Assembly (NCBI GenBank): GCA_022072085.1
Contig: JAJVII010000047.1
Location: 1-64,000 of the forward strand
Direction: 5' to 3'
DNA length: 64,000 nt
Origin: Phycisphaerae bacterium
Lineage (GTDB): Bacteria; Planctomycetota; Phycisphaerae; JAJVII01
Made by a program: the position numbers and the translations under genes. Below the pieces are notes generated by a model, which had not been told where the DNA came from, searched no databases, and saw only the letters and a list, made by a program, of their open reading frames with translations. The number at the start of each line of letters is the position of its first letter. Position 1 is the first letter of the stretch. Of the stretch, positions 39,640-45,223 are shown piece by piece.

Positions 39640-42564
39640 TCACAGCCGCGCCAACTGCTCCGCGACGGCCGCGAGCTCCGATTCGATCTGGGCCAGGCGG
39701 TCGCGCTCCCGCTGGACCGCCTCCGGCTTGGCCCGGCTGACGAAGCCCTCGTTGGCCAGCTTGCCGCGGGACTGCTGGGCCCGCTGGGTCAACTCGGCCT
39801 GCTGCTTGAGCAGCCGCTGACGCTCGGCATCGGGGTCGATGACGTCCAACAGGTAGATGCGGACGCCGGCGACGACGGCCGACGCCGCGTTGGGCGGCGC
39901 CGCCGGCTCGTCGGGCAGGACGCGAAGATCCGCGATGTTGGCCAGTTCGCGGATGACGTCGCTGCTGCCTTGCAGCAGCGCGGCCGCGTCGGCTGAGACC
40001 AGCAGGGCGTCCAGGGCCTTGCGCGGCGGGACATTGTATTGGCTGCGAAGGTCGCGCAGGGCGCGGATGACGGCCTGGAGCCGGTCGAAGCCGGCTTCGA
40101 GCTTTGCGTCGCGGTCGGCGGTCTCGGCGGTCGGCCAGGCGGCCTTGATGAGTCGCCCGGTGACAGGCTGGCCGTCACGGCCTCGGACAGGCGTCTGCTG
40201 ATTCAGTCGGGTCCAGATGGCCTCGGTGATGAACGGGATGATGGGGTGCAGCAGCCGCAGCGTCTGGTCCAGGACGTGGGCGAGGACGGCCTTGGGCGCC
40301 GCCTGCCCGTCGCGGATGCGGAACTTGGCAATCTCCAGATACCAGTCGCACAGATCATTCCAGAAGAAGCGGTAGAGCGAGGCGGCGGCGTCGTGAAACG
40401 CGAACAACTCCAGCGCCGCGGTAACGGCATCGACGCAGCCGGCCAGCCGCGAGAGGATCCAGCGGTCGGCCGAGTGCGCCAGGTCGGCGGCAGCCGGCAG
40501 CGGCGGGACATCGACGAGATTCATCATCGCGAATCGGCTGGCATTCCAGAGCTTGTTGCAGAAGTTTCGGCCGTACTCGAACTTCTCGCTGGTCAGCCGG
40601 GCCAGGGCCGTCTGCTCTTGCCGGGCCTCAGAGGCGAACCGCGTGGCCATCTCCTTGCCGCAGGAGGGGCAGGGCAGGACGACCTGCCGCATGTTCTCCG
40701 CGGTCTGGGGGAATTCGTGGCTGCAATGGGGGCAGCGGAACTTGACCGGCATCCGCATGTCCTGCGTCTCGGTGGTCATCTCGGCCAGCGTCATGCGCAG
40801 GGCGTCGGCGCCGAACAGCTCGATGATGTCCAGCGGGTCCACGCCGTTGCCCTTGCTCTTGCTCATCGTCTGGCCCTGACCGTCCAATATCTTTGCGTGG
40901 ATGTAGACCTTGTGGAACGGTATCTGGCCGAGGTTGTACTGCGCGGTCATGACCATCCGCGCGACCCACAGCGTGATGATATCGCGGCTGGTGACCAGGA
41001 CCGACGTCGGGAACCAGTAGCGCAGCGCCGGGGGATCGTCGGGCCAGCCCAGTGTGCTGAACGGCCACAGCGCGGAGCTGAACCAGGTGTCCAGCACGTC
41101 GGGATCCTGCCGCAGGCGGTGGCCGGTGACGATGTCGTCGGGCAGATCGCCCTCCTGGGCGCAGATCAGCCAGTGCTTGTGCTCCTGGTCCCATCGCCAC
41201 GCGACGGTGTCGTCCTCCTCGAAGGTCCGCTCCAGGTCCTCCAGCTTGCAGGTGTCGCAGTACCAGATCGGAATGCGGTGACCCCACCAGAGCTGTCGGC
41301 TGATCGGCCAGTCGCGCTTCTCGCTCAGCCAGTCCAGGTAGGTCTTGGCGTAGCGCGGCGGGTGGATGCGGATCTCTTCCCTGCGGACGGTTTCCATGGC
41401 CCGCTCGGCCAGGTCGCCCATGCGGACGTACCACTGCTCGCTCAGCCACGGCTCGATCGGCGTGTTGGAGCGATCGGAATGGCCGATCTCGACCTGCCGC
41501 TGCTCGATCCGCTCGATCAGGTCGGCTGACTGGAGGTCCTTGACGACCCGCCGCCGCGCCTCGTAGCGGTCCAGCCCCTCGTACGGGCCGCCGTTGGCGT
41601 TCACCGTTCCGTCGGCGTTGAGGATGTTGATCATCGGGAGGTTCTGCCGTTTGCCGACCTCGTAGTCGTTGGGATCGTGCGCGGGGGTGATCTTGACGCA
41701 CCCCGAGCCCAGCTTGGGATCGGCCCACTCGTCGGCGACGATCGGGATCGGCCGATTCAGCAGCGGCAGGATGACCTTCCGCCCGACCAGTTGCTTGTAT
41801 CGCTCGTCAGCCGGGTTGACCGCGACGGCCGTGTCACCCAGCATCGTCTCCGGTCGAGTCGTCGCGACGATCAGCCACTTCGGATCGCCCGGGCCGGGGT
41901 CGGCCAGCGGATACCGCAGGTGCCAGAAGTGCCCGTTGACCGTCTCGTGGTAGACCTCGTCGTCTGCGACGGCGGTCTGGAGGTGCGTGTCCCAGTTGAC
42001 CAGCCGCAGGCCGCGGTAGATCAGGTCGTCCTGGAACATGCTGAAGAAGGTGTGCCGGACGGCGCGGGCGCAGACCTCGTCCAGGGTGAACCGCGTCCGC
42101 TGCCAGTCGCAGGAGGCCCCGAGCATCTTGAGCTGGCTGATGATGCGGGAGTTGTATTGCTCCTTCCACGCCCAGATGCGATCGACCAGCCCCTCGCGGC
42201 CAAGGTCATGGCGGTCCTTGCCTTCTTCTTCCTTCAGCCGCCGCTCGACGACCGACTGCGTTGCGATGCCCGCGTGGTCGGTGCCCGGCAACCACATTGC
42301 GTCCATGCCCTGCATCCGACGCCAGCGGATCAGCGTGTCCTGGAGCGTGTTGTTCAGCGCGTGGCCGAGGTGCAGCGCCCCGGTGACGTTGGGCGGCGGG
42401 ATGACGATGCAATAGGGCTGCCGCTGGCTGTCGGGCTCGGCGTGGAAGTGGCCCTCGCTCTCCCACAGGCGATAGACCTCCTGCTCAACCTGGTGAGGGT
42501 CGTAAACGGGGGGCAGGGCGTCCGGGGCCTGGGCGTCGGGCGTATGGTCGTTCTCGTTGCTCAT
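39640..42564 (-). CDS. valS: Valyl-tRNA synthetase with a zinc-ribbon insertion
   Basis: A 974-residue class I synthetase charging tRNA-Val. HLGH is in PPPNVTGALHLGHALNNTL, the editing domain includes ATTRPETMLGDTAVAVNP, and TMSKSKGN is the KMSKS loop. The C-terminal anticodon domain is followed by a coiled-coil arm (residues ~910-974). Between the catalytic core and the anticodon domain is an insert with C611-x2-C614 and C632-x2-C635 (CPHC, CPSC), apparently a zinc ribbon. The start at 42564 is the first Met before the conserved core. It lies 56 bases after cimA in the same direction. Confidence 0.96.
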   Translation of the reverse strand: MSNENDHTPDAQAPDALPPVYDPHQVEQEVYRLWESEGHFHAEPDSQRQPYCIVIPPPNVTGALHLGHALNNTLQDTLIRWRRMQGMDAMWLPGTDHAGIATQSVVERRLKEEEGKDRHDLGREGLVDRIWAWKEQYNSRIISQLKMLGASCDWQRTRFTLDEVCARAVRHTFFSMFQDDLIYRGLRLVNWDTHLQTAVADDEVYHETVNGHFWHLRYPLADPGPGDPKWLIVATTRPETMLGDTAVAVNPADERYKQLVGRKVILPLLNRPIPIVADEWADPKLGSGCVKITPAHDPNDYEVGKRQNLPMINILNADGTVNANGGPYEGLDRYEARRRVVKDLQSADLIERIEQRQVEIGHSDRSNTPIEPWLSEQWYVRMGDLAERAMETVRREEIRIHPPRYAKTYLDWLSEKRDWPISRQLWWGHRIPIWYCDTCKLEDLERTFEEDDTVAWRWDQEHKHWLICAQEGDLPDDIVTGHRLRQDPDVLDTWFSSALWPFSTLGWPDDPPALRYWFPTSVLVTSRDIITLWVARMVMTAQYNLGQIPFHKVYIHAKILDGQGQTMSKSKGNGVDPLDIIELFGADALRMTLAEMTTETQDMRMPVKFRCPHCSHEFPQTAENMRQVVLPCPSCGKEMATRFASEARQEQTALARLTSEKFEYGRNFCNKLWNASRFAMMNLVDVPPLPAAADLAHSADRWILSRLAGCVDAVTAALELFAFHDAAASLYRFFWNDLCDWYLEIAKFRIRDGQAAPKAVLAHVLDQTLRLLHPIIPFITEAIWTRLNQQTPVRGRDGQPVTGRLIKAAWPTAETADRDAKLEAGFDRLQAVIRALRDLRSQYNVPPRKALDALLVSADAAALLQGSSDVIRELANIADLRVLPDEPAAPPNAASAVVAGVRIYLLDVIDPDAERQRLLKQQAELTQRAQQSRGKLANEGFVSRAKPEAVQRERDRLAQIESELAAVAEQLARL

Positions 42565-42620: not shown

Positions 42621-44261
42621 CTAGCGGGGCCGGTTTACGAACAGGGCGTCCTGCTCGGCCTGTCGGCGGTCCTCGTCCCGCAGCAGCATGTACTCGATCG
42701 AGTCGACCAGGGCTGACCAGCTTGCGTCGATGATGTTCTCGCTGACGCCGATCGTGCCCCAGTGGCCGTGATGGTCGGACGACTCGATCATAACCCGCAC
42801 CTTGGCCGCGGTGGCCTCGGTCGGGTTGATGACGCGGACCTTGTAGTCCACCAGGTGCATCTCGTCCAGCGCCGGGTAGTGTTGCAGCAGGCTCTTGCGC
42901 AGCGCCTGGTCCAGCGCGTTGACCGGGCCGTCTCCCTCGGCCACGGTGTGCTCCCAGCGCCCGCCGCCCACGCGAAGCTTGACGGTCGCCTCGGTCACCG
43001 GCGGCTGGCCGTCCTCCTTGAGCACGATCGCGCGGTAGTGGTTCAGCTCGAAGAACGGGTGATATCGGCCGATTGCCTTGCGGACGATCAGGTCGAAGCT
43101 CGCCTCGGCCGCCTCGTAGAAGAAGCCCTGGTTCTCGCGGTTCTGTATCTCCTCCAGGATCGACCGCAGGACCGCGCGGTCCTCGATCTTGTAGCCGCCG
43201 ACTTTGTCGCTGACCGTGCTCACGCCGCTCAGCTCGCTGATGAGCACGCGGCGCTTGTTGCCGACCGTCGCGGGGTCCACGTGCTCGTAGCTGCGGGATA
43301 GTCGCTGCACGCCGTGGACGTGCATCCCCCCCTTGTGGGCGAAGGCCGACTGGCCCACGAACGGCTGGTTGTCCGGCGGGATCATGTTGGCCACCTCGTA
43401 GACGAACGTGCTCAGTTCGGTGAGGCGGCGCAGATGCCCCTCGGGCAGGCAGCGGTACCCCTTCTTCAATTCCAGCACGGGGATGACGGTGGTCAAGTCC
43501 ATGTTGCCGCAGCGTTCGCCGATGCCGTTGATCGTGCCCTGGACCTGCACAGCGCCGGCCTCGATGGCCGCCAGGGCGTTGGCGACGGCCATGGAACTGT
43601 CGTTGTGCGTGTGGATGCCCAGCGGCGTCCGCGTGGCGGCCGCGACGCGGGCGGTGGCCCGGGCGACGGCAGCCGGCAGCGAGCCGCCGTTGGTGTCGCA
43701 CAGGACCAGGACGTCGGCGCCCGCCTCGACGGCGGCGGCGAGGGTCTTGAGCGCGTATTCCTCGTTGGCTCTATAACCGTCGAAGAAGTGCTCGGCGTCG
43801 TAGATGACCTCGCGGCCCCTGCTCTTGAGGTAGCGCACGGAGTCGGCGATCATCGCCAGGTTCTCATCAAGGCTGACGCGCAGGACTTCGGTCGCGTGCA
43901 GGTCCCACGTCTTGCCGACGACGGTGACCGTCGGCGTGTTCGAGTCGGCCAGGGCGTTCATGCCGACGTCGTCAGCCGCCCGGACGCCCTTCCGCCGGGT
44001 CATGCCGAACGCGGCCACCTTGGCGTGGCGGAAACGCATCCTGGCCGTCTCCGCGAAGAAGGCGACGTCCTTGGGATTGCTCAGCGGGTAGCCGCCCTCG
44101 ATGTAGTCGATGCCGATCTCGTCCAGGCGGCGGGCGATCATCAGCTTGTCTTCCAGCGACAGGCTGACGCCCGATCCCTGCGTGCCGTCGCGGAGCGTGG
44201 TGTCGTAGGTGGCGATGCGACGCCCGGCGTCCGGCGAATGAGAATCGCTCTGCTGGCTCAT
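42621..44261 (-). CDS. cimA: Citramalate synthase
   Basis: Condenses pyruvate with acetyl-CoA to (R)-citramalate, the first step of the threonine-independent route to 2-oxobutyrate and isoleucine. The 546 residues show the DRE-TIM barrel (ATYDTTLRDGTQGSGVSLS, GIHTHNDSSMAVANAL, GTINGIGERCGN) and a C-terminal LeuA-type allosteric domain (residues ~410-520). The TTLRDGTQ motif and length fit the CimA type that resembles 2-isopropylmalate synthase, rather than homocitrate synthase. It is preceded by an attenuator with a leader peptide rich in Leu, Ile and Val. valS is downstream. Confidence 0.94.
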   Translation of the reverse strand: MSQQSDSHSPDAGRRIATYDTTLRDGTQGSGVSLSLEDKLMIARRLDEIGIDYIEGGYPLSNPKDVAFFAETARMRFRHAKVAAFGMTRRKGVRAADDVGMNALADSNTPTVTVVGKTWDLHATEVLRVSLDENLAMIADSVRYLKSRGREVIYDAEHFFDGYRANEEYALKTLAAAVEAGADVLVLCDTNGGSLPAAVARATARVAAATRTPLGIHTHNDSSMAVANALAAIEAGAVQVQGTINGIGERCGNMDLTTVIPVLELKKGYRCLPEGHLRRLTELSTFVYEVANMIPPDNQPFVGQSAFAHKGGMHVHGVQRLSRSYEHVDPATVGNKRRVLISELSGVSTVSDKVGGYKIEDRAVLRSILEEIQNRENQGFFYEAAEASFDLIVRKAIGRYHPFFELNHYRAIVLKEDGQPPVTEATVKLRVGGGRWEHTVAEGDGPVNALDQALRKSLLQHYPALDEMHLVDYKVRVINPTEATAAKVRVMIESSDHHGHWGTIGVSENIIDASWSALVDSIEYMLLRDEDRRQAEQDALFVNRPR

Positions 44262-44299: not shown

Positions 44300-44342
44300 A
44301 TAAACACAACGCCCTGAAGCGGTCTGTAAAACCCTCAGGGCG
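44300..44342 (-). terminator. Attenuator terminator upstream of cimA
   Basis: On the minus strand a perfect 8-bp stem CGCCCTGA/TCAGGGCG (44335-44342 with 44310-44317) has a 17-base loop and is followed by a U-rich TTGTGTTT. It lies between the leader peptide stop (44382) and the cimA ATG (44261), exactly where a transcription attenuator should be. Confidence 0.75.
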
Positions 44343-44381
44343 AGTGGCGTCTGCTGCGCTGTTTCGGCCCGGGGGCTGGAC

Positions 44382-44483
44382 TTAATCGCCGACTACCGCT
44401 ACCGCGATGCCGGCGCGAACGATCAGACCCCGTACCGCCCGGCCCGTCGAGCGGGCTTCGCAGTCGTGTCCTTTCGTTCGCAC
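44382..44483 (-). CDS. Branched-chain amino acid leader peptide of the cimA attenuator
   Basis: A 33-codon frame starting with GTG at 44483, preceded by GGGAGG at a six-base spacing, and ending in TAA. The second half is RGLIVRAGIAVAVVGD: from residue 20 it contains one Leu, two Ile and four Val codons in 12 positions, the pattern of ilv/leu leader peptides. Ribosome stalling at these codons when charged tRNA-Leu, -Ile or -Val is scarce would change the folding of the downstream RNA. The final codons contain GGCGA, which can pair with TCGCC at the 5' arm of the terminator, a plausible antiterminator. A promoter 37 bases upstream completes the unit. Confidence 0.78.
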   Translation of the reverse strand: MRTKGHDCEARSTGRAVRGLIVRAGIAVAVVGD

Positions 44484-44519
44484 GTCCAACCTCCCGGCTA
44501 TCGGCCGAATGAACTCTCT

Positions 44520-44548
44520 ACGATAAGCGTTCTATCGGTCCCCGTCAA
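44520..44548 (-). promoter_or_regulatory. Promoter of the cimA leader-cimA transcript
   Basis: TTGACG at 44543-44548, 17-base spacer, TATCGT at 44520-44525 on the minus strand. The start near 44512 puts the leader peptide GTG about 30 bases into the RNA. Confidence 0.68.
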
Positions 44549-44578: not shown

Positions 44579-45223
44579 TCACCCGTCCGGCCGGCTGGCG
44601 GCCTTGTCACGCAGCATCCGCTGTCGCCACGCAGGCCACTGGTCAGGTTGGACCTCGGCCCACAGGCCGGCCCGGGACCGGCGGGCCCGGGCCTCGATCC
44701 CCTTGAACCGCACGAACCGCGGGTGATCGAACCGCAGGTCGGCGTAGGCGCAGCCCTCCTCCAGCAGACGCTCGTTGAGCATCGTCCCGTCGGGCAGCCA
44801 GACGTACGCCAGCAGCCGGTGCTGGCTGGTGCGGTCCCGCGTGTGCCCGGGAATCAACTCGATGCGGACCTGCTGGCCGTCGGCGATGGCCTTGGCGAAA
44901 GCCGACGCCTCGGGGCCGTAGTAGTCCGGGTCGGCCGAGCGGTCGTCCTTGTAGACCTCGGGCGTGTCGACGCCCCACAGACGGACGCGGGTGTGCTCGT
45001 GGCGGCCGTCGGGGATGTCCAGGTCCAACGTGTCGCCGTCGACCACGCGGGCGACGCGGAAGGTGCGGTTGTTGTATTGCTCCAGGTCGTCGCCGGGCCG
45101 CCCGAACGCGCCCAGCCGATCAAGCAGCACGGCCAGCCCGGCCAGGAAAATCAGGGCGGCCAGGCTCGCACGGCGGCGGCTCAGGCGGAATCGCGGCAGA
45201 CTGGAGACGATGCGGCGGCGCAT
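44579..45223 (-). CDS. Membrane-anchored thermonuclease-family (SNase-like) protein
   Basis: A 214-residue protein. The N-terminal transmembrane anchor is at about residues 18-36. The staphylococcal-nuclease OB-fold follows: RVARVVDGDTLDLDI, VRLWGVDTPE (catalytic Arg and Asp), HRLLAYVWLPDG and ARRSRAGLWAE. The fold cleaves DNA and RNA with Ca2+; here it is anchored on the outer face of the membrane and may work in nutrient scavenging or competence. The start at 45223 is favoured because a promoter lies six bases upstream (leaderless); an ATG at 45259 would add twelve residues but overlaps that promoter. Confidence 0.86.
   Translation of the reverse strand: MRRRIVSSLPRFRLSRRRASLAALIFLAGLAVLLDRLGAFGRPGDDLEQYNNRTFRVARVVDGDTLDLDIPDGRHEHTRVRLWGVDTPEVYKDDRSADPDYYGPEASAFAKAIADGQQVRIELIPGHTRDRTSQHRLLAYVWLPDGTMLNERLLEEGCAYADLRFDHPRFVRFKGIEARARRSRAGLWAEVQPDQWPAWRQRMLRDKAASRPDG

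Follow-up and report, generated by a model that had tools for sequence, protein, structure and literature searches.

A predicted leader-peptide attenuator upstream of the citramalate synthase gene cimA in Planctomycetota

How a planctomycete adjusts the transcription of cimA, the gene for citramalate synthase, is the question raised by a locus in the 64,000-nucleotide stretch of Phycisphaerae DNA analysed here (the window), for which a first-pass annotation had proposed a complete transcription attenuator. Judged by the named relatives of this cimA, the genome belongs to Planctomycetota and probably to the class Phycisphaerae. Judging from sequence and folding models, we predict that the leader of this cimA gene is a ribosome-mediated transcription attenuator (probability roughly 0.85), and computational support for such control of cimA is good across the phylum. 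CimA is securely identified by TIGR00977, with 693 bits where the cut-off is 450; the gene follows the leader and the terminator and is itself followed by valS on the same strand, both in keeping with the annotation (Table 1). The genes around cimA form a branched-chain and aspartate-family cluster, grouped on the minus strand between 39640 and 53341 in the order ilvB (assigned by TIGR00118), ilvN and ilvC (both named from their own sequences), homoserine dehydrogenase, a proposed, apgM-like homoserine kinase, aspartate kinase, a thermonuclease, cimA and valS. The thermonuclease gene lies upstream of the cimA leader and ends with its stop codon at 44579.

All parts of the predicted attenuator could be read directly in the sequence. 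The claimed TTGACG-N17-TATCGT promoter is present and represents one of two sigma-70-like sites in 8 kb, where shuffles give 0.5. Downstream of it, GGGAGG and a GTG-started leader of 33 codons are found at the places described, and the C-terminal part of the peptide reads RGLIVRAGIAVAVVGD. The peptide contains two Ile, one Leu and five internal Val residues; three of the five internal Val codons are GTA, which accounts for 1.6% of the Val codons of the neighbouring genes. Between the leader ORF and cimA lies the expected intrinsic terminator, formed by a CGCCCTGA/TCAGGGCG stem with the U-rich, interrupted tail TTGTGTTTA. One hairpin scan missed this terminator because its 17-nt loop exceeds the limit of 8 set in that scan. 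A second copy of the leader was not found in the source genome.

Table 1 Features of the cimA leader region and downstream genes in the window.
Feature	Position	Strand	Basis and remarks
-35 hexamer TTGACG	44543..44548	-	read in sequence; identical in sibling L004
-10 hexamer TATCGT, 17-nt spacer	44520..44525	-	hexamer and spacing identical in sibling L004
Stem P1, 5' strand CCGGGAGGTTGGAC	44484..44497	-	fold; covers Shine-Dalgarno sequence, pairs with 44369-44381; comparable stem in sibling
Shine-Dalgarno GGGAGG of leader ORF	44490..44495	-	sequence; kept in sibling
Leader ORF, GTG 44483 to TAA 44382, 33 aa, MRTKGHDCEARSTGRAVRGLIVRAGIAVAVVGD	44382..44483	-	sequence and leaders of relatives
Stem P2, 5' strand TGCGAACG, leader start region	44475..44482	-	fold; covariation in 10 loci
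Stem P2, 3' strand CGTTCGCG, Val-Arg-Ala codons	44414..44421	-	fold; covariation in 10 loci
Conserved RAGI codons CGC GCC GGC ATC	44406..44417	-	VRAGI-type leaders, 15 loci
Hairpin P4, CGCCGGC...GTCGGCG, at leader ORF end	44387..44415	-	fold; C:G changed to U:A in sibling
Candidate stall codons GTA GCG GTA GTC	44391..44402	-	codon usage
Stem P1, 3' strand GTCCAGCCCCCGG, just past leader stop	44369..44381	-	folds of window and sibling
Best candidate antiterminator GCCCCCGGGC, beside stop codon	44367..44376	-	predicted to pair with terminator 5' arm, -15.5 kcal/mol
Intrinsic terminator hairpin CGCCCTGA...TCAGGGCG	44310..44342	-	sequence; stem kept in sibling
U-rich tail TTGTGTTTA after terminator hairpin	44301..44309	-	sequence
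cimA, citramalate synthase, regulated gene	42621..44261	-	TIGR00977; start ATG 44261
valS, valyl-tRNA synthetase, downstream of cimA	39640..42552	-	5' end approximate

Conservation at close range was examined in one sibling genome (G001, locus L004), which shares both family and order with the source genome. Its cimA is 75% identical to that of the window, and the gene upstream of it is unrelated to the window's, encoding a membrane protein (type inferred from sequence). The sibling carries TTGACG-N17-TATCGT, followed by GGGAGG-N-TGGAC-GTG-CG, a leader of 34 codons (MRTIRHQTGNRRRADSLPCGRIVRAGIVASAASV) that reads IVRAGI in the corresponding frame, and the CGCCCTGA/TCAGGGCG stem, again followed by a U-rich tail. 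As the two leaders differ by one codon, the frame has been kept despite indels. Thus, promoter, start, Shine-Dalgarno sequence, frame, IVRAGI and terminator are all retained in this relative, and the outcome named in the annotation as a refutation, a lack of leader-frame and terminator conservation among relatives, did not occur. When the DNA upstream of the window's cimA was searched against 61 relatives, no match appeared outside the source genome.

For a wider view, cimA upstream regions were gathered from relatives, from a draw across the phylum and from named genomes, with the upstream boundaries of cimA set by computation. A strong U-tailed hairpin precedes cimA in 95 of 170 planctomycete loci (among them two records titled just 'bacterium') versus 3 of 36 loci from other phyla (a cimA-like gene on a viral contig included); the same scan found no terminator at the other 75 of the 170 planctomycete genes. 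Of 180 further long ORFs taken from these planctomycete loci, 14 had a hairpin, none of them with an Ile-rich leader. These counts bear on the idea that the hairpin of the window merely ends transcripts of the thermonuclease gene, the leader ORF being a product of chance. Although the hairpin does lie between two same-strand genes, we regard this as highly improbable: the promoter and leader are situated between the nuclease stop and the hairpin, the sibling has kept all leader parts behind a different upstream gene, and cimA is preceded by a terminator much more often than other genes are.

For the leader peptides themselves we took, in each of the 92 loci with a usable terminator, the best ORF whose end lies 10-110 nt ahead of that terminator. 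At least four Ile within eight residues occurred in 47.8% of these cimA leaders against 0.54% in dinucleotide shuffles. By the same criterion Val reached 7.6% against 0.4%, and most other residues stayed near shuffle level, with a modest excess of Ala, Pro and Ser. Examples of Ile-rich leaders are MNIQNIIISIIINIGGD (L030), MNSRIASIIIISNHTKR (L013) and MSHSSIIAEIIMIPSHGR (L011), and loci of Gimesia, Gemmata and Rubripirellula are among those surveyed. Codon choice is likewise skewed: in GC-rich loci the leaders use ATT 87 times and ATC 63 times, versus 125 and 758 times in cimA, an 8-fold preference for ATT over the cimA coding regions. Ile-rich leaders and terminators hence precede cimA across the phylum. 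Of the Leu/Ile/Val leader proposed at first, the branched-chain character stands, but the residue predicted to be sensed phylum-wide is isoleucine, and the window copy, in which end-product codons are more weakly enriched than at the level of the phylum, is an atypical, divergent Ile/Val subtype.

The paralogous leuA was analysed with the same kind of pipeline at a slightly lower hairpin cut-off. Leu-rich leaders were found in 75% of 32 loci against 7.3% in shuffles, and these 32 loci showed no Ile excess (0%). The leuA locus of the source genome (L002; G000:C3:64048-65610) and 31 further leuA loci were noted for Leu-rich leaders and terminators, as a predicted parallel attenuator. L002 resembles the cimA leaders in layout, and its leader stop codon likewise falls within the stretch complementary to the terminator arm; it differs in its Leu instead of Ile codons. 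Upstream of trpE and ilvB, hairpins were detected in 3 of 30 and 7 of 29 loci, in neither case with matching leaders, and by inspection no leader was evident before the window's ilvB or before hisG. A general attenuation of amino-acid genes was therefore rejected.

Complementarity to the terminator points to where the switch is located. Over 73 loci, pairing with the terminator 5' arm is strongest at the leader stop codon, where the mean duplex energy is -10.3 kcal/mol, versus about -3.3 kcal/mol some 25 nt upstream, and in many Phycisphaerales-type loci the UAG stop lies inside GGUAGGGC, the complement of the terminator's GCCCUGCC. When folding was computed with the ribosome masked, the mean antiterminator probability was 0.77 with the ribosome at the Ile codons and 0.22 at the stop; 40 of 43 loci gave a higher value for the stall than for the stop position, with a Wilcoxon p of 2e-8 that overstates independence given the shared ancestry of the loci.

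For the window, the annotation had named a GGCGA:TCGCC pairing as the antiterminator. This 5-bp pair exists, but GCCCCCGGGC pairs more strongly, and the short pair is absent from the sibling, where the equivalent of GCCCCCGGGC reaches -19.4 kcal/mol with the terminator arm. GGCGA:TCGCC was thus rejected, and from these models a segment located at the leader stop or directly behind it fits better as the antiterminator. For the window segment centred on the stop codon, complementarity to the terminator arm is unremarkable (z of 0.1); the strongest complement is found about 10 nt beyond it. In a downstream-only kinetic model, a ribosome at the Ile/Val codons leaves the terminator arm held with 0.79 in the window and 0.84 in the sibling; at the stop these values are about 0.4-0.8 and 0.1-0.3, respectively, a partial drop in the window and a clear one in the sibling. 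With the upstream RNA left free to pair, the result varies with the assumed footprint. At equilibrium the terminator of the window wins for every ribosome position (0.94-0.97), and therefore switching would have to be kinetic. Because the modelled switch of the window is partial, footprint-dependent and dominated by the terminator at equilibrium, the attenuation mechanism is firmer for the planctomycete cimA family than for the window's own copy.

The leader RNA of the window is far more stable than dinucleotide shuffles (z = -5.6), and that of the sibling also folds better than its shuffles (z -3.7). Among the predicted stems (Table 1), P4 was considered as common to all RAGI leaders and dismissed, as its support was confined to window and sibling. 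VRAGI-type leaders occur in several families of the class, and in 15 loci the RAGI codons read CGC GCN GGY ATY, with the exception of one RARM. Stem P2 was aligned in ten VRAGI loci, where the leader begins with MR (at codon level, seven of the ten have MRT or a near match) and this start pairs with the codons for Val, Arg and Ala. In this alignment 86% of cells are paired and three pairs are changed on both sides, a level of covariation matched by 2 of 500 shuffles, with the ten starts hand-picked with pairing in view, which favours the helix. Strong structure (P1, P2 and P4) and covariation of this kind would be expected if a ligand-binding riboswitch or another structured RNA controlled the terminator and the leader ORF were incidental to conserved stems. 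We consider this unlikely, since Ile codons in cimA leaders and Leu codons in leuA leaders are enriched in the frame that ends at the antiterminator, the third positions of the RAGI codons vary, Rfam covariance models including T-box gave no relevant match for the leader RNA, and no common fold was seen across Ile-rich leaders.

Within the class, a group of loci (L117, L017, L022, L023 and L029) has leaders in which ARAGI or VRAGI leads into Val-rich stretches and GGPR; a GTA codon is conserved among them, and they contain more Val than Ile. Arg-Ala-Gly is also common to SecM-type arrest peptides, whose RAG/P arrest needs Pro after RAG and whose RAGA variant does not stall (PMC10951299, PMC12992588); the cimA motif lacks this Pro or a RAPP-like core, so RAGI is unlikely to act as a SecM-like arrest motif. 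We tentatively suggest, as a doubtful extension, that in the VRAGI subtype P1 over the Shine-Dalgarno sequence and the covarying P2 might couple leader initiation to the stall site, such that the RNA would report ribosome loading as well as Ile/Val supply with very few regulatory codons. Three class relatives (L005, L020 and L027) have VRAGI or VRAAI leaders before cimA and no detected terminator, and possibly use another mode of control. They lend some weight to a leader that acts mainly via translational coupling or stalling on cimA translation rather than on termination. For the window such a mode is very unlikely, as both window and sibling possess terminators, and in neither is the ribosome site of cimA evidently sequestered.

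We thus return to ribosome-mediated attenuation, and infer from the arrangement described how termination, stalling and induction would proceed. RNA polymerase would start at TTGACG/TATCGT, and a ribosome would begin the leader peptide. With charged Ile (or Val) tRNA plentiful, the ribosome would reach the stop codon and cover the complement of the terminator 5' arm; the terminator would then form and cimA would not be transcribed. A ribosome stalled at Ile/Val codons before the stop would leave this segment free to pair with the terminator arm, so that the terminator would fail and cimA would be transcribed, probably together with valS. In the window copy, the Ile codons and the rare Val (GTA) codons of RAGIAVAVV are probably the ones sensed.

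Leader-peptide attenuators of the proteobacterial ilvGMEDA, ilvB and leu operons combine an end-product-rich leader and rare codons with mutually exclusive antiterminator and terminator structures. The planctomycete cimA leaders are alike in these respects and in the biosynthetic gene downstream, but differ in the gene (cimA, on the threonine-independent Ile route), in the phylum and in the strong enrichment of Ile alone in most leaders. Leader ORFs with branched-chain codons, placed ahead of a terminator and a biosynthetic gene, are likewise known from actinobacterial ilvB (PMC1262725) and, as a uORF, from corynebacterial ilvB (PMC10272879), again with another gene and phylum, whereas planctomycete ilvB itself showed no such leader in the 29 loci surveyed. 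The leucine-rich attenuator of branched-chain synthesis genes in the Firmicute Staphylococcus aureus (PMC5794164) similarly shows a branched-chain residue being sensed by a leader peptide outside Proteobacteria, although the residue there is leucine. A 2010 survey (PMC2965389) gave leader-peptide attenuation as known from Proteobacteria and Actinobacteria only and added some Firmicutes; a 2016 leader-gene survey (PMC4833913) covers Planctomycetes, and its passages available to us do not name cimA or leuA. Our search of open-licence papers found no description of leader peptides in connection with cimA, citramalate synthase or Planctomycetes, in agreement with the annotation's statement that no cimA case was known from planctomycete-like genomes; an earlier report elsewhere is possible.

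Our analysis extends predicted leader-peptide attenuation to a large part of the Planctomycetota and links it with the two paralogous enzymes at the entry to isoleucine and leucine synthesis, with matching codon specificity. The leader codons can thereby serve to distinguish citramalate synthase from isopropylmalate synthase, and with the Gimesia, Gemmata and Rubripirellula loci the prediction is available for culturable planctomycetes. The data suggest that many planctomycetes induce isoleucine synthesis once a shortage of isoleucine makes ribosomes stall.
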